Source: Ignavibacteriales bacterium
Lineage (GTDB): Bacteria > Bacteroidota > Ignavibacteria > Ignavibacteriales > Melioribacteraceae
NCBI GenBank assembly: GCA_016177735.1
Contig: JACOUS010000018.1
Location: 1-64,000, forward strand
Reading direction: 5' to 3'
DNA: 64,000 nucleotides
The notes under the pieces are model-generated. The model made no database searches and was not told the origin of the DNA. It was given only the letters and a program-made list of their open reading frames with translations. Each line of letters opens with the position of its first letter. Positions within the stretch are counted from its first letter, which is position 1. This document shows positions 36,431-44,924 of the stretch, piece by piece. Made by a program: the position numbers and the translations under genes.

Positions 36431-37120
36431 TTGGCAAAAGAAAAATTAGCTGTAGTTGCCGTTAGCGGCGGAATGGATAGTTGTGTTACGGCGGCGATTG
36501 CAAATCAAGAATATAGACTTGCACTTGTTCACATCAATTATGGCCAGCGGACTGAGAAGAGAGAACTAAAAGCATTCAACGACATTGCCGATTTTTACGG
36601 CGCAGAAAAAAAAATAGTAATTGATTTTTCACACTTTGCAAAAATCGGCGGTTCGTCTCTCACTGATTCCAATATTGAAGTAACCAAAGCCGATTTGGAT
36701 AATAAAGAAATTCCAACTTCTTACGTTCCGTTCCGCAACTCAAATATTTTGAGCGCGTGCGTAAGTTACGCGGAAGTGGTGAATGCATCTGCGGTTTTTA
36801 TCGGCGCTGTTTACGAAGATGCAAGCGGTTACCCGGATTGCCGTCCTGAATTTTATTCGGCATTCCAGCAAATTGTAAACATCGGAACGAAGCCGGAAAC
36901 GAACATAAAAATTGAAACACCGATTATACATTTAACAAAATCCGAGATTGTAAAAAAGGGAGTTGAACTTGGTGCGCCGCTGCATTTAACTTGGTCTTGT
37001 TACCAAAGTGAAGATGAAGCATGCGGAGTTTGCGATAGCTGTGCATTCCGTCTGCGCGGTTTTCAGCAAGCCGGAATTGAAGACCCGATTTCATATAAAG
37101 TAAAACCAAATTATCGTTGA
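36431..37120 (+). CDS. queC: 7-cyano-7-deazaguanine (preQ0) synthase QueC
   Basis: 229 aa starting at a TTG (36431), the only start that leaves the family N-terminus intact (AKEKLAVVAVSGGMDS). The PP-loop is SGGMDS; the zinc site is C190, C198, C201, C204 in CYQSEDEACGVCDSC. It converts 7-carboxy-7-deazaguanine to preQ0 using ATP and ammonia. This serves queuosine tRNA modification, or 7-deazaguanine DNA modification in some systems. Its pathway partner queF lies 7.4 kb downstream, beyond an accessory gene block. A GTGTAGAACGTAGAGT repeat follows the stop. Confidence 0.93.
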   Translation: MAKEKLAVVAVSGGMDSCVTAAIANQEYRLALVHINYGQRTEKRELKAFNDIADFYGAEKKIVIDFSHFAKIGGSSLTDSNIEVTKADLDNKEIPTSYVPFRNSNILSACVSYAEVVNASAVFIGAVYEDASGYPDCRPEFYSAFQQIVNIGTKPETNIKIETPIIHLTKSEIVKKGVELGAPLHLTWSCYQSEDEACGVCDSCAFRLRGFQQAGIEDPISYKVKPNYR

Positions 37121-37215
37121 GTGTAGAACGTAGAGTGAAGGAAATTTGGGCTGTAATTATATTTTTACGATAAAGAAATGATTTTTTAGATTAATATTCT
37201 AGGAGGGTTATAAAC

Positions 37216-37467
37216 ATGATGTATAAAAGTCTTTCGGATAACCTTGAAGAGAATGAAATTGTTTTCGCAATTACAGTAGAGCATGTCCAGATGATCGCTG
37301 AAAGAATGGGAAGAGAACCTCTGAATTATGATGAAATGGATTCTGTTCAAAATGGAGTTGAGTGGGGGCTTGATTTTTGGAGCGATATTGTTCGGACAGC
37401 AATAAAAAATTTACCATCTAAACATGAAGATGATGAATTGGAAGAACCAGAATCCGATGAAGAATAA
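37216..37467 (+). CDS. Small acidic hypothetical protein, first gene of the accessory operon
   Basis: 83 aa with an excellent AGGAGGG site. It begins MMYKSLSDNLEENEIVFAIT, contains LDFWSDIVRTAIKNL, and ends in a strongly acidic tail (DDELEEPESDEE). No domain is recognised. It is followed after 23 bases by another small gene and then by the ParB-like, SNF2 and DUF3883 genes on the same strand, so it probably belongs to that system, perhaps as a regulatory or DNA-mimic-like subunit (inference from charge only). Confidence 0.6.
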   Translation: MMYKSLSDNLEENEIVFAITVEHVQMIAERMGREPLNYDEMDSVQNGVEWGLDFWSDIVRTAIKNLPSKHEDDELEEPESDEE

Positions 37468-37490
37468 AACAAAAATATATCTGAGGTAGC

Positions 37491-37706
37491 ATGAAGACAT
37501 ATAAAGTTTTACTCTACCGTGATTATATAGTACACATTGATGCAAAGAATGAAGAAGAAGCAAAATCTCTTGCTGAGTTTTTTATCGATGGTGAAAAAGA
37601 TTGCTTTATCGAGAAGGAAAGAAAGCAATATAGTTTCAAGATTAGCGAAATTGAGATGGTAATGAATGATGCGTTTGAGGTCCAAGAATTGAAAGAAGAT
37701 TTATAA
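37491..37706 (+). CDS. Small hypothetical protein, DpnD/PcfM-like
   Basis: 71 aa. The sequence KVLLYRDYIVHIDAKNEEEA followed by KSLAEFFIDGEKD resembles the short beta-beta-alpha DpnD/PcfM-like proteins sometimes encoded beside restriction or conjugation genes. No catalytic residues are apparent. It follows an AGGTAGC site and lies 60 bases before the ParB-like gene. The family call is weak. Confidence 0.55.
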   Translation: MKTYKVLLYRDYIVHIDAKNEEEAKSLAEFFIDGEKDCFIEKERKQYSFKISEIEMVMNDAFEVQELKEDL

Positions 37707-37766
37707 AAAAGTTATATTATTCATGCTAATAGCTTCATATTAAAATATTTATAAGGGAGAAATTTT

Positions 37767-39161
37767 ATGGAACCTATTACCATTCCAAAATTCAGAGAAA
37801 TCATCGATGACTTTGCCGAAGAAATCAAACGAAGAAAAACAAAGGTATCACCACCCAAAACTGTAATTTATTTTAGGAATGAACATATCAAAGGAATTGA
37901 AAGAGATGTATGGGAAGTTCCAGTAGAATTATTGAGATACAGAGTTGATAATGGAAGAATATCGTCAGATGTAGAAAGTTATAGAAAAATGTATGGACCA
38001 CTTCTGGAAAGAGACGAGAATACTCAAAAAATATTAGCATCATTTTTAGAAAGAAAAGATCCTGATTTAACTGAAATTCTTGTAAAGTCCATTAAACATA
38101 CCGGACAAAAAGAACCCGCGATTATTACATGTGATGGATTTTTAATAAATGGGAACAGACGAAAATTAGCTTTAGAAAAATTAAAACTACCCACAATGCG
38201 TGTCGTAATTTTGCCGGGACCTGGTGATGAGGGAGGACAACCTACTTTACTAGAAATTGAGCAAATTGAAAACAGATATCAACTTCAGAAGGAAGGAAAA
38301 GCAGAGTATTATAAATTTGATCGGGCCATTTCAATACGAAGGAAAGAAAAGCTTGGAATGTCATTAGAAATGCAATTAAGAGATGATCCTCAATTTGCAA
38401 GTTTACCTGAAAAAGAATTCCAACAAAAAATGCAAGAATATCAAAGAGAATATCTTGAACCCTTGAAATGTATTGATATGTATTTATCTCATATTGGAAG
38501 AGAAGGTTTATATGATAATATATCAACTGCAATAGCAGACAGAGAAGGTAGATGGCAAGCATTTTATGACTACTCTGATTCTGTAGAAAGTAAACTTAAT
38601 GATGAAAAGAAAAGAATTAATTTATTAAAAGTGGGTGAAGATGAGGTCGGAATTGTCAGAGACGTAGCTTTCAAAATTATAAGACAGCGTGAATTTCCCA
38701 AACTGAAAAAAGTACATCAGATCATGCGAGATTTCCCGAAAATGTTAAGAAGAAGCGAATCTAAAGAGGCATTATTCGAGCTAAAAGATATAAACATGGA
38801 TCTTCCAAACAAATTAAAATATGATGAGAATGGTGAAGAATTAGATTTTAAAAAAATTGATCAGATGTGGATTAGTAATAATGCTCAAACTATAATTAGA
38901 CAAGTTAAAAAAGCAATAAATCTAGATGAGTACGAAAGAGAGAAAGAAACGCCCGTTTTACTTCTACAAGCAGCATTTGAAAAATTGAATCACCCTAAAA
39001 TGTTGCCTCGAAATGCAAAAGTTGAAGAGTGTAAAGATGCTTGTATATTAGCTCAGCAAATTAGAGATAGAGCAGACATATTACGTGCTGAATTTGCAAG
39101 CTTAGATAAGATGAGCAAAAAGTTCAAAGTAAAAAATCAAATGAAGAAGAAACATAAATGA
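37767..39161 (+). CDS. ParB-like nuclease-domain protein of the accessory operon
   Basis: 464 aa with a GGGAG site. An N-terminal ParB/Srx-like domain runs about 47-140: DVWEVPVELLRYR, EILVKSIKHTGQKEPAII, and DGFLINGNRRKLALEKL (residues 123-139), which matches the ParB box II G-x-R-R motif. Downstream it is mostly charged helix (EYYKFDRAISIRRKEKLG, EYLEPLKCIDMYL), without the HTH of plasmid partition ParB. Such ParB-like domains occur in DNA-modification and defence systems and can bind CTP or cleave DNA. Its stop overlaps the SNF2 start by 4 bases, so the two are made together. The specific biochemical role is unknown. Confidence 0.78.
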   Translation: MEPITIPKFREIIDDFAEEIKRRKTKVSPPKTVIYFRNEHIKGIERDVWEVPVELLRYRVDNGRISSDVESYRKMYGPLLERDENTQKILASFLERKDPDLTEILVKSIKHTGQKEPAIITCDGFLINGNRRKLALEKLKLPTMRVVILPGPGDEGGQPTLLEIEQIENRYQLQKEGKAEYYKFDRAISIRRKEKLGMSLEMQLRDDPQFASLPEKEFQQKMQEYQREYLEPLKCIDMYLSHIGREGLYDNISTAIADREGRWQAFYDYSDSVESKLNDEKKRINLLKVGEDEVGIVRDVAFKIIRQREFPKLKKVHQIMRDFPKMLRRSESKEALFELKDINMDLPNKLKYDENGEELDFKKIDQMWISNNAQTIIRQVKKAINLDEYEREKETPVLLLQAAFEKLNHPKMLPRNAKVEECKDACILAQQIRDRADILRAEFASLDKMSKKFKVKNQMKKKHK

Positions 39162-41059
39162 TAATAGACGTTGATGGAAATAGAGTTGTAATAAAAGAGT
39201 ATGGATTACAACTAAAGTCATATCATATTCATCAATTAGATTTTTGGGGTTTTGTCTCTGACTCAATTACAAAGTCATGCACTTCTTTATCAGAACACAA
39301 TATTTTACTTCCAAAACTTTTACAATATTTTGATAAAGAAAAAATACCCTACAAACTCACTGAATTATGTCAAAAGGCAGTTGACAACATTATAAAAGAG
39401 AGAAATGAATTTGGAAGCCATATTGAAAAAGCGATGGACTACAAAAACGGTAATATTAATAGTGATGTTTTAAACGAATTCATTTCATTTTTAAAAGAAT
39501 TCGTGCCAAGAAAATTGAAGGGTCATCAGATAAAAGCTGCTTTACATTTAGGGTATATTAAGAACGGAGCCAATTTTTCTGTCCCAGGTAGTGGTAAAAC
39601 TACAGTTGTGCTTACAGTATTTGAAAAACTTAAATTAAAGGGTGAAGTAAACAGTCTTTTTATTGTTGGACCTCCTTCATGTTTTGGACCTTGGCAAAAT
39701 GAGTTCAAGGAAACATTAGGAAGAGGGCCTGATTGCTATATTTTTGCTGGGGATTTTAGAATTAATAGAGAGATTGAATACTTTAGAACGGAAAATTTTC
39801 ACGAATTATATTTGACTACTTTTCATACGCTCCTAAATGATGTGGATAATGTCATAGAGTTTTTATCAAATAGAAACTTGAAAGCTTTTTTTGTAATTGA
39901 CGAAGCTCATTATATTAAACAGATTAATGGGAACTGGGCTTCTGCAGTAATTAAATGTGCAGAACATGCTATGTATCGTTGTGTGCTGACCGGGACTCCC
40001 ATTCCTAAAAGTTACGAAGATCTATTTAATTTAATCGAGGTTTTATGGCCGCGAAAAAATTTATTAACAAGCGAAGAAAAATTTAGATTAAAAAAACTAG
40101 AAGCGCAGAGAGCAGATAAAGAAGCAAAACAAATATTAGATAAAAAAATAGGTCCAATTTTTTATCGAGTTCGTAAAAAGGATTTAGGACTGAAAAAGCA
40201 AAACTTTATACCTCCAATCCAAATAGATATGAATAAGCATGAAAAAGCTATTTATGACTCTATATTTAATAAGCTAAGAAATTCATCAAAGAATGATTAT
40301 TTAGTAAACATTGATTTGATTCAACGTTTAATAAAAGGTAGGATGATCCGATTGCGCCAAGCAACATCATATGTGAAACTACTTTCGACATCAATTCAGG
40401 ATTATGATGAGGAAATTCTTTCCAATAAAGATAGTTATGCAAACATTATTCAAAATTATGATCAATTTGAGTTACCGGCGAAGCTTGAATATATAATTGA
40501 TATTGTATCAAAATTTCAAAAGGATAAAAAAAAGATTGTTGTTTGGTCCAACTTTATTGGTACAATAAAATTAATTGAAGATCATCTTAACCGACTGGGC
40601 ATTTATAATAAAAAGATTATTGGAGAAACACCTATACAAAAGGAAAATATCGTAGAAGGAGAAACACGAGAAAAGATAAGGAATGAATTTGTTGATTCGA
40701 AGAGCGGATTGAATGTTTTAATTGCTAATCCGGCTGCTTGTGCAGAATCGATTTCGTTACATAAGACTTGCTTTGATGCAATTTATTATGATCTTTCTTA
40801 TAACTGTGCTCAGTACTTACAATCTTTAGATAGAATTCACAGAGTAGGAGGATCGGAATTACACGAAGCCAACTATTACTTCTTGCAGTATAAAAACAGC
40901 ATTGATTCAGATATTCTTGACAATCTTAAAAGAAAAGCAAAGAAAATGTATGATATAATTGAAGATGATTACAGTATTTATTCATTAGATATGTTTGATG
41001 ATGAAAACGAAGTTGAAGCTTATAAAAGACTGTTCCATCCAAAGAATTTAGATGAATAG
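39158..41059 (+). CDS. SNF2-family helicase/translocase
   Basis: 633 aa. Walker A is VPGSGKTT (K147), Walker B/motif II is IDEAH (248-251 region), motif III is LTGTPI, and motif VI is QSLDRIHRVGG in the second RecA lobe with LNVLIANPAACAESISLH before it. The layout is that of stand-alone bacterial SNF2 proteins that translocate along duplex DNA. The N-terminal ~120 residues are unrecognised and may contact partners. The ATG overlaps the ParB-like stop (ATGA) and the 3' end overlaps the DUF3883 gene by 8 bases, so the three products probably form one machine. Confidence 0.9.
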   Translation: MIIDVDGNRVVIKEYGLQLKSYHIHQLDFWGFVSDSITKSCTSLSEHNILLPKLLQYFDKEKIPYKLTELCQKAVDNIIKERNEFGSHIEKAMDYKNGNINSDVLNEFISFLKEFVPRKLKGHQIKAALHLGYIKNGANFSVPGSGKTTVVLTVFEKLKLKGEVNSLFIVGPPSCFGPWQNEFKETLGRGPDCYIFAGDFRINREIEYFRTENFHELYLTTFHTLLNDVDNVIEFLSNRNLKAFFVIDEAHYIKQINGNWASAVIKCAEHAMYRCVLTGTPIPKSYEDLFNLIEVLWPRKNLLTSEEKFRLKKLEAQRADKEAKQILDKKIGPIFYRVRKKDLGLKKQNFIPPIQIDMNKHEKAIYDSIFNKLRNSSKNDYLVNIDLIQRLIKGRMIRLRQATSYVKLLSTSIQDYDEEILSNKDSYANIIQNYDQFELPAKLEYIIDIVSKFQKDKKKIVVWSNFIGTIKLIEDHLNRLGIYNKKIIGETPIQKENIVEGETREKIRNEFVDSKSGLNVLIANPAACAESISLHKTCFDAIYYDLSYNCAQYLQSLDRIHRVGGSELHEANYYFLQYKNSIDSDILDNLKRKAKKMYDIIEDDYSIYSLDMFDDENEVEAYKRLFHPKNLDE

Positions 41060-41990
41060 AGGCTACACGACGAGTTTCAAAAGCGTATTAGTTTTTTTTG
41101 AATTACTTAAAAAAGTAAATCAAAAAGATCTCCAATATATAAAACAGTTATATGTACAAAGTGCGGAGCGTTTTGAAGATTGTATAGATTTTCTTCTGTC
41201 AATAAATCTGGTAAACCTGAATTCCGGATATATCGAACCAACTCCACCGCTTAATAAATTTCTCTTAAAACGGCTCGACGAAAACAAAGCAAAAGAATTT
41301 TTAATAAACAAATTACTTACCAAAAGAAGCATTGATTTATGGGAATATTTGGAAAAATTCTCTTTCTCTCATGATAAATATATTTTTGAACCACAGATTT
41401 CGGAGAACCTTAAATTTAGCAGCTTAAGAAACTTACTTATCGAATTAGAGTTTATTTTTTATAATCCTAACGAAAAAAATTATGAGATAACAGAAAAATA
41501 CATACCTTTATTTGTTGATGTTATACAAGAACATGCTATTAGTCCTGAGAAGCTGAAGAAAATAATTGAGGAACAAGACAAAATTGGTAAATGTGCTGAA
41601 TTAGAAATTATGAATTACGAGAAATCAAGGTTGTCTAACCGACAAGATTTATTATTAGCAATCGAACACAAATCTTTAAAGGATACTTCAGTGGGTTATG
41701 ATATAAAGAGTTTTACTTTAAGCGATGGTTTAGAAGTAACTGACAGATTTATAGAAGTTAAAGCTATTTCTAAAAGCAGAAAAAAATTTTATATGACACG
41801 TAATGAGGTGAATACTTCAAAAAAATATGGCTTGGAATATTACTTGTACTTACTTCCAGTAGTTGGAAGGACAGAATTTGATTTAGCTAATCTTATGATA
41901 ATTCAAAACCCCTATGATAATATTTTTAATAACAACGAGTGGGAAATCGAATGCGAGCAATTTATAATAAAGAAAGAAGTAGATGAATAA
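41052..41990 (+). CDS. DUF3883 (NO VEIN C-terminal-like), predicted PD-(D/E)xK-type protein
   Basis: 312 aa. The N-terminal ~170 residues are helical and contain winged-helix-like segments (KDLQYIKQLYVQSAERFEDC). Residues about 178-290 fit DUF3883: E183 in CAELEIMNYE, D217 in VGYDIKSF, and E235-V-K237 in RFIEVKAI, followed by FYMTRNEVNTSKKYG and YLYLL. The E...D...ExK order is that of PD-(D/E)xK nucleases, so DNA cleavage is a reasonable inference but is not shown for the family in general. It ends 6 bases before the convergent methylase gene. Confidence 0.8.
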   Translation: MNRGYTTSFKSVLVFFELLKKVNQKDLQYIKQLYVQSAERFEDCIDFLLSINLVNLNSGYIEPTPPLNKFLLKRLDENKAKEFLINKLLTKRSIDLWEYLEKFSFSHDKYIFEPQISENLKFSSLRNLLIELEFIFYNPNEKNYEITEKYIPLFVDVIQEHAISPEKLKKIIEEQDKIGKCAELEIMNYEKSRLSNRQDLLLAIEHKSLKDTSVGYDIKSFTLSDGLEVTDRFIEVKAISKSRKKFYMTRNEVNTSKKYGLEYYLYLLPVVGRTEFDLANLMIIQNPYDNIFNNNEWEIECEQFIIKKEVDE

Positions 41991-41996
41991 GGTGGA

Positions 41997-42881
41997 TTAT
42001 TCTCTAGTGGGGTTTATTTTATGTTGTTTTTTCTCTTTCTCGGTTAGTCGTATAGGTACTCGATTATTCTTTATTGCTTTTTCAAATTGTTGATTCTTCC
42101 AAAGCACCTCTTTTCGTTCATACTTTTTACCAGATGTATCCGCTGTGGTTGTTTCTATAATCGTCTTAGTCCATCCATTTTTAGGTGAAAGAATTTCATT
42201 ATATAAATCATTGTCATAACTACTTATCAACATCATACATTTTGCTTTATTACTTTTTTCGAGTAACTCAATATGAAATGATTCATCAATATCATGTTTG
42301 TAGTGATGGCTTCTTTCCATCAAATAGGGCGGATCCATATAAAAGAGCGTTGCCGGTTTGTTCAGAAACATTTCTAATAATTCACGGGCATCTCGATTTT
42401 CAACTCTGATATTTCTCAACCTTTCAACTACTAATGTTAGCCGTTCTGGAAGATTGTACCATCTATTAACTCTTGCTTCTCGGCCATTTCTCGAATAAGA
42501 TTGAGAGAAGGAGAATCCAGCGCCAGTTTCACCAACAGCACCGTTTACAGTCATCATTGTTGATATTAAAAATCTTCTTGCTTTTTCAATAGGTTCGACA
42601 ACAGTAATTTTTTCTCTAGCTAGAAAATATTCTTTTCTAGCATATGGAGTTAATGATATAGCACTGATTAACTTTTCAGGATTTTTTCGTAGTTGCTCGA
42701 ATAAATTTATGATTTGATCGTCCAAATCATTTATAATTTCTAGTGGAGCCGGTTTTTTTGCTAAAGTTAGGGCAGCAGAACCGCAAAATGCTTCGACCCA
42801 AGCATTATGTAGCGGTAGTGAGTTAATGATTTGTGGAGCAATACGGACTTTAGCTCCATAATATCCAAACGCTGGTTTCAT
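41997..42881 (-). CDS. Dam-type (D12 class) N6-adenine DNA methyltransferase
   Basis: 294 aa. Motif X/I region FGYYGAK near the N-terminus, SAM motif EAFCGSAAL (30-38), catalytic DPPY (183-186) in YMDPPYL, and WVEAFCG order fit the alpha-class D12 methylases such as Dam and M.DpnII. It methylates adenine N6 in a short site, which may be protected from a cognate nuclease. It is convergent with the DUF3883 gene and divergent from a truncated restriction endonuclease, so it may be the surviving half of a type II R-M pair, the protective partner of the ParB/SNF2/DUF3883 operon, or both. Confidence 0.9.
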   Translation of the reverse strand: MKPAFGYYGAKVRIAPQIINSLPLHNAWVEAFCGSAALTLAKKPAPLEIINDLDDQIINLFEQLRKNPEKLISAISLTPYARKEYFLAREKITVVEPIEKARRFLISTMMTVNGAVGETGAGFSFSQSYSRNGREARVNRWYNLPERLTLVVERLRNIRVENRDARELLEMFLNKPATLFYMDPPYLMERSHHYKHDIDESFHIELLEKSNKAKCMMLISSYDNDLYNEILSPKNGWTKTIIETTTADTSGKKYERKEVLWKNQQFEKAIKNNRVPIRLTEKEKKQHKINPTRE

Positions 42882-42987
42882 ATAAACAAGATTTAATACA
42901 TTAATAAAATAAAAAATTCTTCATCAAAAAGTATCAATAGCCCGTGAATATTTTTTATATTAATTATGTAATAATTGAATTGCCTAA

Positions 42988-43344
42988 AACTTTAGGAAAG
43001 CAAAACAAAGACTGAGAACCAATGCTAAGAAAATGCCAGTTGAAGCTATAAACGGCTGTTGTTATGGGCGTGTTGTGAAAACAGATAAAGGTGAATATCA
43101 AAAAATTGCCGGACAAAGATTTTGGGAATTAATTTCCGATAACTCTGAATTATATACAGAAATCATAGAGCCGTTGGCATACCAGTCGAAAGAAAGAAAT
43201 ATAGAATATGATAGTGAGTATGCTAAACAGATTAACATTTTCAGTCTCCAATTTGCTAATGAATTTTGTGTTGATGGTGTAATTAACTGGAATAAAATTG
43301 TTCAATTTAATTCAGGGAAAGAAAAAGTTAAGGTCAATTTATGA
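42988..43344 (+). pseudogene. 5'-truncated type II restriction endonuclease
   Basis: The open frame runs from 42988, just after an in-frame TAA, and encodes FRKAKQRLRTNAKK, then VEAINGCCYGRV, GQRFWELISDN, YTEIIEPLAYQSKERN and FCVDGVINWNKIVQFNSGK. The ...AVNGCCYG...GQ.FW..ISG...LY..IIEPL motif order is what I recall from the C-terminal part of certain type II endonucleases (TdeIII/PmeII-like groups). The N-terminal two thirds with the first catalytic acidic residues are absent. An internal ATG at 43033 could start a 103-aa product, but homologous sequence continues upstream of it, so this is a remnant. It diverges from the Dam-type gene. Confidence 0.6.
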
Positions 43345-43397
43345 CCAATAAGTTTAATCTCCTTTTTTATCAACCCCAACAAACACTATAAAATTTT

Positions 43398-44480
43398 ATG
43401 GCGGCAGTGAACGATAAATTTGAAAACAAGTGGACTGAAGAAGAATTAAACATTCTTAAAGAACATTACATATCCAAAGGTTCTAAATATATTGCGGAGT
43501 TGACTAATCGCAGCCGCAGATCGGTTATGAAAAAAGCTGCAAAACTTGGTCTCCGCATTCCGCCGGTTTGGAATGAGGATGAATTACTATTCCTAAAGAG
43601 AAATTACAAAAAGAAGGGTTCACAGTACGTCGCAAAAAAATTGGGTAAAAGTCCCGATGCAGTGATGTTAAAAGCGGCTAAACTGGGGATCAAGTTTGAC
43701 GGTATCCGTCCGTGGGGACCGTGGGAAGATAATTATTTACGAAGGCATTATAACGATAGGAAAAAAGCTTCTATCGCACGCACACTTAAAAGAACGATTC
43801 CTTCTGTTGTTGGCAGAGCTAAAATTCTAAAGCTAAAAGCACAGCGTGCTGAATTATGGTCGGAAAAAGAAAGAAATATTTTACGCGAATTATATCCCGA
43901 TAGAAAGAATTCTATTGCTGAGATTTGTAACATTTTAAAAAGAACACGCCAAGCAGTACTACTGCAAGCACAGTATTTGGGAGTAAGCAGACCCGTGCAT
44001 GATCATGAATGGACGAGGAAAGAAAAAAATTATCTCGCCAAGTTTTACGATAAAAAAACTTATAAAGAAATTGCAAAGGATCTCGGCTTAACTCAAAGTG
44101 CGGTTTCACATCAAGTGAACAGAATGGGATTGAAACAACGCGAACCGGGAAGACTGTGGACGGAAGAAGAAAAAGAATTTATCAGACAGAATTATAAAAA
44201 AATGCCGAGCAGAGAAATTGCCCGGCGGCTGAACAGAAGTATTGATGCAATAATTAACAGTGCCGGTCCGCTCGGAATTAGTGCCGGTCGTCCTCGCCCG
44301 TGGAATGAAGAGGATAAAGAGTATATCAAAAAAAAATATGGGCAGATTCCTTTGGAAGAAATAGCGTCAGTTTTAGGACGAAGCCCGCTAGCCGTATATG
44401 CTGCAGCTATAAAATTAAAACTGACAAGACAGAGAAAAACACGTTCTAAAAAAGAAGCGGCGGCTCTTCCACTTGAATAA
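43398..44480 (+). CDS. Protein of seven tandem Myb/SANT-like helix-turn-helix repeats
   Basis: 360 aa made of seven ~47-residue units, each starting with a Trp-containing (K/V/P/L/E)W(T/N/G/S) and matching W..E(E/K)...L...Y.......IA..L.R...AV...A..LG(I/L). Unit starts are near residues 12, 58, 105, 154, 204, 254 and 304. Single units are homeodomain-like three-helix bundles that bind DNA or scan nucleic acid in related phage and bacterial proteins. No catalytic domain is attached. The C-terminus is basic (RQRKTRSKKE). It lies between the restriction remnant and queF and could be a modular DNA-binding protein of the accessory block or an independent regulator. Confidence 0.8.
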   Translation: MAAVNDKFENKWTEEELNILKEHYISKGSKYIAELTNRSRRSVMKKAAKLGLRIPPVWNEDELLFLKRNYKKKGSQYVAKKLGKSPDAVMLKAAKLGIKFDGIRPWGPWEDNYLRRHYNDRKKASIARTLKRTIPSVVGRAKILKLKAQRAELWSEKERNILRELYPDRKNSIAEICNILKRTRQAVLLQAQYLGVSRPVHDHEWTRKEKNYLAKFYDKKTYKEIAKDLGLTQSAVSHQVNRMGLKQREPGRLWTEEEKEFIRQNYKKMPSREIARRLNRSIDAIINSAGPLGISAGRPRPWNEEDKEYIKKKYGQIPLEEIASVLGRSPLAVYAAAIKLKLTRQRKTRSKKEAAALPLE

Positions 44481-44549
44481 ATTTATCATCAATTTTGTAC
44501 GTGTAAAAATTTTACCGTAAGTAATAGGCTAACAAAACAATAACAAGCT

Positions 44550-44924
44550 ATGTCTGATAAAACAAAAATCCTCGAAATATTTGCGAACCCTAATCCCGAA
44601 AGAGATTACACAATAATTCATAATGCGCCGGAGTTTACTTCGCTGTGTCCGAAAACCGGTCAGCCCGATTTTGCAACGATAATTCTCGAATATATTCCCG
44701 ATAAAATTTGTGTCGAGCTGAAGAGCTACAAATTCTATCTGCAGTCTTACCGCAATGATGGAATCTTCTTCGAAGCCGTAACAAATAAAATTCTCGATGA
44801 TCTCGTAAAAGTCTGCAAGCCTCGCTACATGAAAATAACTGCAAAGTTCAACACACGCGGCGGCATTCACTCCGAAATTATTGCCGAGCAGAGAAGAAAA
44901 AAACTCAAGAAAAAATTTGTCTGA
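44550..44924 (+). CDS. queF: NADPH-dependent preQ0 reductase QueF
   Basis: 124 aa, the short unimodular form. The active Cys is in [16 protein letters not shown], and the QueF signature [16 protein letters not shown] provides the preQ0/NADPH-binding residues. It reduces preQ0 to preQ1, committing the pathway to queuosine in tRNA. With queC upstream, the pair probably formed one locus now split by accessory DNA. Confidence 0.93.

Follow-up and report, generated by a model that had tools for sequence, protein, structure and literature searches.

We analysed a stretch of 64,000 nucleotides from an Ignavibacteriales bacterium (contig JACOUS010000018.1, positions 1 to 64,000; hereafter the window) and studied a gene cluster encoding a ParB-like protein, an SNF2-family ATPase and a NOV_C/DUF3883 protein (here called NOV), next to a D12-class DNA methylase gene. 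An earlier note on this DNA had interpreted five same-strand genes as a restriction-like machine. This is still the best-supported reading, and its support is comparative: the genes recur, they have a methylase partner, and their predicted active sites are conserved. But the unit consists of three genes plus the D12 methylase, not of five genes. Judged from sequence comparison, it is likely to be an ATP-dependent restriction-modification (R-M)-like defense system, in which effector and methylase are exchangeable.

A profile of nine SNF2 proteins yielded at least 553 matches in the GTDB genomes. The best 80 of these relatives, 11 loci from plasmids or phages (L005-L015) and the window make up a set of 92 loci, which spans many bacterial phyla and, going by record titles, includes archaea (L046, L052, L078, L084). 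L001-L004 were left out of locus counts, gene-order counts and co-variation, and L001 (the window's own copy), L003 and L004 (short flanks) also of the neighborhood motif and labeling surveys. Split genes were counted as found (SNF2 in two open reading frames (ORFs) in L014 and L121; pieces of ParB, SNF2 or NOV in L040, L042 and L122). L056 and L060 are near-copies, and L016 and G087:C167 were taken as one. The trio of ParB, SNF2 and NOV recurs in different phyla and in the neighborhood of methylases. Of 90 SNF2 genes, 87 directly follow a ParB gene on their own strand, with a median gap of -4 (based on longest-ORF starts). The three exceptions are two genes starting at a contig end (L063, L078) and one with an intervening ORF (L042). 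NOV directly follows SNF2 in 68 loci and overlaps it in 63 of them.

Because the best 80 loci had been picked by SNF2 similarity, we also drew samples with ParB only. The core was found in 6 of 394 other genomes of the window's phylum and in 8 of 397 genomes of the Fictibacillus phylum, i.e., in 1.5 to 2% of the genomes sampled from these two phyla; two of the 14 (G741, G695) are probably identical to L058 and L089 of the 80-locus set. SNF2 was adjacent to ParB, or one gene removed from it, in 13 of these 14 genomes (cut by a contig end in G086, in two ORFs in G323), a methylase within three genes in 13, and NOV was present in nine. The exceptions are G509, where the contig starts 636 bp before ParB, and G648, which has two C5 methylases and no SNF2, and where ParB (L158:8346-10463) carries an N-terminal HEPN_Swt1 domain. 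This HEPN-fused ParB is possibly a further effector form. As for the other genomes without NOV, a phospholipase D (PLD) domain is fused to SNF2 in G509 and G845, G086 is cut, and G837 remained unlabeled.

In 58 of the 64 loci with two or more genes on either side, the core has a methylase no further than two genes away. The rate by position was 75/310 at distance 1-2 compared to 3/460 at distance 3-6. Therefore, crowding in defense islands hardly suffices as an explanation. The methylases beside the core belong to the D12, C5, N4/N6 and type III Mod classes, with D12 within two genes in 31 of the 92 loci. On a tree of the SNF2 proteins (88 rows; L014, L040, L042 and L094, with SNF2 below 550 amino acids (aa), left out), the methylase class changes at least nine times. 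In the D12 loci, SNF2 identity tracks that of ParB (rho 0.78) and NOV (rho 0.86): the trio co-varies as a unit, but the D12 methylase barely follows. Its identity hardly follows any core region (rho 0.06-0.30; 17 loci in which the methylase lies at most three genes from SNF2), and the window methylase shares 82% identity with its counterpart in L003, a locus whose ParB is only ~25% identical. One row of the first co-variation, which gave rho 0.78 and 0.86, is L044; it probably used a D12-labeled gene other than the adjacent one (22% identity), which is of the N4 class. For the C5 methylases (24 loci), every region tracks moderately (rho 0.37-0.58).

The effector varies as well. NOV is present in 68 of the 92 loci, and 18 of the 24 loci without it have another candidate. 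A PNP_UDP_1-type gene lies just upstream of ParB in five loci (L020, L021, L023, L024, L027), labeled by Pfam in L020 (1.1e-25) and by BLAST cluster in the other four. Six loci (L026, L031-L033, L040, L049) have an HNH-like N-terminal extension on ParB, with an HNH_2 match of 0.0015 in L031, below the Pfam cut-off. SNF2 carries a PLD domain in two of the 92 loci (L006, L010; PLDc_2 7.2e-7 in L006), and type III Res was found in five loci without NOV. Among the remaining six, three are cut by a contig end, and L011, L025 and L029 have no effector label. On the SNF2 tree, the fewest effector changes needed were 5, compared to 15.8 in shuffles; the PNP and HNH rows fall within a branch of 33 rows (support 96) that also holds 20 NOV rows, including the window. 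The effectors are almost mutually exclusive, and NOV and an HNH-SRA gene occur together only in L016. Exclusivity is incomplete, since NOV coexists with a second restriction-type gene in one group: a BanI/DpnII-like gene accompanies NOV beside the core in 18 of 92 loci. This label is based on RE_BanI (5.4e-8) in L007 and on a DpnII match below cut-off in L056; a PDB sequence search with the L056 protein found nothing.

We then looked at the individual proteins. The SNF2 motifs GSGKT, DEAH and QSLDRIHR are intact (alignment A2). The E-D-ExK pattern pointed out earlier in NOV proved to be invariant: E183, E190, D217 and E235-x-K237 are present in 57 of 57 full-length rows, after 12 shorter, longer or weaker sequences of 69 matches had been left out. 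NOV therefore has the conserved active site expected of a PD-(D/E)XK nuclease and would presumably cut DNA. Its structural model (pLDDT 93.1, pTM 0.69) shows two parts, a winged-helix-like N-terminal region (residues 1-162) and a PD-(D/E)XK-like nuclease domain (168-302). The first resembles Nt.BspD6I (6qnz; Z 8.4, root-mean-square deviation (rmsd) 3.7, 152 residues aligned) and the recognition domain of BpuJI (2vla; Z 6.9, rmsd 4.0, 155 aligned). The second resembles Hjc (1gef; Z 8.5, rmsd 2.9, 96 aligned) and a SPARDA chain (9qcc; Z 9.1, rmsd 4.0, 111 aligned). FokI spans both parts, yet with an rmsd of 14.9. The best Foldseek match was weak (E 0.14), and a PDB sequence search with the NOV profile found only a de novo design. 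Median pairwise identity is 0.15 for the N-terminal part compared to 0.36 for the nuclease part.

The ParB-like protein had been assigned to the ParB/Srx type, and the fold of its model agrees with this. It has no Pfam hit and gives weak ParB matches (TIGR00180 0.011, phrog_620 6.7e-6), while HTH_ParB and ddrB-ParB each match one of its 44 relatives. The AlphaFold2 model (mean pLDDT 92.3) aligned with ParB-CTPgammaS (7bnr; Z 11.4, rmsd 1.4, 93 aligned; VIA-align), KorB (8qa9; Z 10.2, rmsd 4.2, 197 aligned) and sulfiredoxin (6ky4; Z 8.0, rmsd 3.0, 86 aligned), and the top Foldseek rows were ParB and Noc with a probability of 1.00. By its predicted fold, the protein belongs to the ParB-CTPase superfamily. 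Its residues N62, R64, Q114, G124, N130-R132, E168, Q172 and Y181 are invariant in 44 of 44 rows, and it may bind a nucleotide. A PDB sequence search with the ParB profile found nothing. Some ParB-fold proteins have been reported to cut DNA (PMC5512222). The effector-associated domain EAD11 of Pfam matches one of the 44 relatives (4.3e-4; alignment A3).

Conservation shows intact ATPase, methylase and nuclease motifs, a fixed ParB-SNF2 order, and alternative effectors and methylases. Since the core pairs with varied effectors (HNH, PLD, type III Res, nucleosidase-fold) and varied methylases, core, mark and weapon appear to be separable modules. We propose the following mechanism. The methylase, judged by its class and position, would mark host DNA at a short motif and thereby protect self. 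The constant core would combine a ParB-fold nucleotide-binding switch or clamp with an SNF2 motor on double-stranded DNA, and it may engage unmarked DNA through nucleotide binding and ATP-driven translocation. ParB-SNF2 would then recruit or license the effector. In the window, this would be the DUF3883 protein, whose winged-helix N terminus may bind DNA and whose E-D-ExK domain may cut it. A recurring core of this kind, with methylase and effector exchangeable, would extend R-M biology by an ATP-dependent class and would suggest a role for DUF3883 and for a branch of the ParB fold outside chromosome segregation. Defense-finding tools could then recognize loci that currently show up as an isolated methylase, a helicase or hypothetical proteins.

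A number of observations weigh against this interpretation. The well-supported branches of the SNF2 tree alone force only two NOV changes; with labels clustered on the tree and few forced changes, effector exchanges have been few. Six of the 64 loci lack a methylase at distance 1-2 (L008, L011, L014, L015, L050, L073; in L014 and L073 it lies at three genes). The methylase hidden Markov models were built from neighbors of the same loci and can miss other methylases, and a loose motif pattern flagged distal candidates, e.g., in L023, L036, L041 and L075. Co-variation points to no clear target-recognition part: even the core region that best tracks D12, the N-terminal part of SNF2, does so weakly (rho 0.30, Mantel p 0.04). 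Ordinary winged-helix proteins match the NOV N terminus equally well (Hel308, Z 8.4, 73 aligned; MarR types), so that a type IIS-like reading of this region is only a lead. Moreover, loci without NOV must recognize DNA by other means. Finally, the nucleosidase-fold gene might merely relieve product inhibition of the methylase, because the nearest solved structures to its product are 5'-methylthioadenosine/S-adenosylhomocysteine nucleosidases. Motifs that we take to be nucleosidase-type were present in 5, 4 and 3 of the five PNP proteins.

A broader version is possible but clearly more speculative: ParB-SNF2 could be a general methylation-gated alarm, which would sense that the partner methylase's mark is missing and activate whichever effector adjoins it, either a nuclease (NOV, HNH, PLD) or, in the five PNP loci, a nucleosidase-fold protein that would attack nucleotides or nucleosides and stop the cell instead of cutting DNA. 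If true, a single platform with exchangeable parts would link restriction-type recognition of self and non-self with abortive infection.

Alternatively, the core could supplement R-M systems that are complete without it, since BanI/DpnII-like or type III Res genes (five loci, as mod-res pairs) adjoin it. A conventional enzyme would cut, and ParB-SNF2(-NOV) would process the breaks or act if the cut fails or is repaired. BglII-like genes adjoining the core in L004, L123 and, below the Pfam cut-off, L069, as well as the EcoO109I remnant in the window, fit such an accessory or back-up role. But among labeled neighbors the 31 loci with D12 within two genes all lack the BanI/DpnII-like label, as do 13 of the 28 loci that combine NOV with a C5 methylase, and we regard this role as rather unlikely. 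We give even less credence to a counter-restriction or replication module of mobile elements, whose methylase and SNF2 would protect or remodel the element's own DNA. SWI2/SNF2-methylase dyads of phages and conjugative elements have been described (PMC5512222), and plasmid or phage records account for 11 of the 92 loci. However, the nuclease site is intact in all 57 NOV proteins, nucleases are among the alternative effectors, and the window copy occupies a chromosomal R-M hotspot where no transposase or integrase family scored above the Pfam cut-off among the ten proteins scanned at this locus. Least probable of all is a divergent form of DISARM, Dpd, Hma, BREX or CglI/NgoAVII: SNF2 matches parts of the DpdE, DrmD, BrxH and HmaA models and NOV parts of HmaA, PD-T4-1, TmtA and PDC-S36, but these matches are confined to the shared ATPase or nuclease domain, the other named components have no match among the ten proteins, and the window ParB matches no model.

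The comparison with each named system leads to the same picture. DISARM consists of DrmA, DrmB, DrmC, a methylase and the SNF2 protein DrmD. The window SNF2 gave partial DrmD and DrmA matches, and neither DrmB nor DrmC was found among the ten proteins. BREX has PglZ and BrxC, which had no match there either. The Dpd system requires DpdA, for which the ten proteins gave no match, and SNF2 stayed far below the NCBIfam cut-offs (DpdE, 28 bits vs 500; DrmD, 58.5 bits vs 610). Hma comprises HmaA plus partners. HmaA (1176 positions) was matched at 509-615 by SNF2 and at 1069-1148 by NOV, and no partner was found among the ten proteins. PADLOC-DB 2.0.0 has no model that covers the window ParB and does not model the unit; three of its models each match one of the 44 ParB relatives. 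Was the system undescribed, as had been suggested? The ParB-SNF2-methylase unit is not named in the literature searched, with most subscription papers, bioRxiv and REBASE outside the search. DUF3883 by itself, on the other hand, has already been treated as a presumed type II restriction endonuclease (PMC10609329) and called a novel restriction endonuclease domain (PMC3710099). Parts of the unit have been noticed singly before, and no named system tested was found in full.

The closest described system in how the window system would work is CglI/NgoAVII. It likewise has a separate methylase, a helicase-type ATPase and a nuclease, and its cleavage needs extensive ATP hydrolysis (PMC4267653). A dedicated methylase is also found here, next to the trio in the window and in the 58 of 64 loci. 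The nuclease and ATPase of CglI/NgoAVII are of the PLD and DEAD families, unlike NOV_C and SNF2, and the passages describing it name no ParB-fold protein (PMC4267653). The window nuclease matches NOV_C only; PLD was seen in the relatives L006, L010, L157 and L159, and the PLD-SNF2 proteins of L006 and L010 resemble CglI/NgoAVII homologues with fused PLD nuclease and ATPase (PMC4267653). A Lactococcus plasmid protein combines PLD, SNF2 and helicase domains beside a type IIG-like methylase; its authors compared it with DISARM, and no ParB partner is mentioned in the description, on which our comparison is based (PMC6098607). MORC SWI2/SNF2 R-M operons likewise bring together an SNF2 helicase with various endonucleases, methylases and Vsr, but their further ATPase is a GHKL MORC protein, and "ParB" occurs 0 times in the text (PMC2292703). 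SNF2 and DUF3883 also occur together in Hma (PADLOC HmaA) and in the Ava_2192 neighbors, which PMC3710099 places in R-M operons, but there as fusions, whereas in the window they are separate genes with ParB, and no other Hma model was matched. Lastly, GmrSD, SspE and other DUF262 systems couple a ParB/Srx-fold domain to an HNH-type nuclease, similar to the HNH-ParB fusions described above (PMC10952713). They belong to the DUF262 family, to which the ParB protein has no Pfam match.

The features of the window locus are listed below. All five plus-strand ORFs of the earlier note are present, with overlaps of 4 bases (ParB/SNF2) and 8 bases (SNF2/NOV). Motifs like the ribosome-binding sites noted before the two small genes are there as well (AGGAGG and GAGG, respectively), and a similar motif, GGGAG, precedes ParB. 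But only the last three genes stand as a unit. The two small genes are placed outside it, because among 114 loci searched by tblastn they were not conserved alongside the trio: for the first, the only matches were the window genome's own copies, and for the second, these plus one gap between queC and queF (G001, see below). The methylase gene that does belong with the trio lies 6 bp beyond the interval first described. The G+C content is 0.29-0.33 over the trio and ~0.39 around it. A sigma-70 promoter scan of 37000-44600 was not above shuffles (31 vs 32.7), and terminators showed little excess (5 vs 3.3). The HTH-repeat (helix-turn-helix) protein that precedes queF has a 40% match at L119:11631-12407 adjoining the trio there, possibly a mere repeat-driven match.

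Features of the window locus and the evidence for each.
Feature	Position	Strand	Evidence
Two small ORFs (83 aa, 37216-37467; 71 aa, 37491-37706), not conserved with the trio	37216..37706	+	tblastn on 114 loci
ParB-like protein, 464 aa, core	37767..39161	+	ParB-CTPase fold (~residues 47-177) and helical C-terminal region in the model
SNF2-family ATPase, 633 aa, core	39158..41059	+	PF00176 1.7e-18, PF00271 1.6e-5
NOV_C/DUF3883 protein, 312 aa, predicted effector	41052..41990	+	PF13020 3.8e-16; active-site conservation
D12-class N6-adenine DNA methyltransferase, 294 aa, predicted self-marking	41997..42881	- (convergent to operon)	PF02086 1.6e-23
EcoO109I-type restriction enzyme, C-terminal remnant, 103-aa ORF	43033..43344	+	PF14511, positions 143-198 of 198
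HTH-repeat protein (phrog_323-like) adjoining the methylase	43398-44480		phrog match
Segment between queC (36431-37120) and queF (44550-44924)	37121..44549	.	G+C dip

The whole segment lies between queC and queF. Homologues of queC were found in 18 of 20 genomes (the copy in G085 is distant and has no queF in the stretch examined). The gap between the two genes is below 100 bp in 10 of 17 genomes, own genome counted, 332 bp in G080, and occupied by genes in six. G002, G003 and G009 have a TdeIII-type R-M pair there, G004 a full-length EcoO109I-type enzyme plus an N4/N6 methylase, G001 a 309-aa gene of no assigned family plus a homologue (49%) of the second small window ORF, and the sixth, the window genome, the segment described here. 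Hence, other R-M systems occupy the gap in four of 16 relatives. Because TdeIII, EcoO109I and window systems fill it across relatives, we regard the gap as an R-M hotspot; besides the window segment, the loci bearing on it are L115, L116, L118, L127 and L128. The EcoO109I remnant of the window is 62% identical to the full-length enzyme in the G004 gap, which suggests that it is a trace of an earlier R-M occupant and not a working part. In view of the flanking genes, we asked whether the segment is linked to queuosine or to DNA modification with 7-deazaguanine and rejected this, since queC and queF sit together without the trio in those 10 of 17 genomes.

Some further observations were made along the way. 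Viral contigs were also scanned, and the window ParB had no relative among them. In L016, the closest relative of the window trio (SNF2 79%), an HNH gene weakly similar to SAD/SRA lies upstream of ParB (L016:5670-6398, L126), and no methylase was labeled on the 10.5-kb contig of this locus. Homologous proteins of 860 and 896 aa (26% identity, E 1.7e-59) are encoded directly upstream of ParB in L011 (3369-5951) and L159 (5561-8251), neither with a Pfam match. A Pfam scan likewise assigned no family to the 309-aa gene of L115, the 391-aa gene of L050, the 304-aa gene of L029 and the 258-aa gene of L161. L029 is titled Glaciecola amylolytica (Pseudomonadota in NCBI), but its matches in the phylum sample are those of Poritiphilus flavus and the window genome, and its name or placement is odd. 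In L051, a second ParB-like gene follows NOV (L051:10709-11968).

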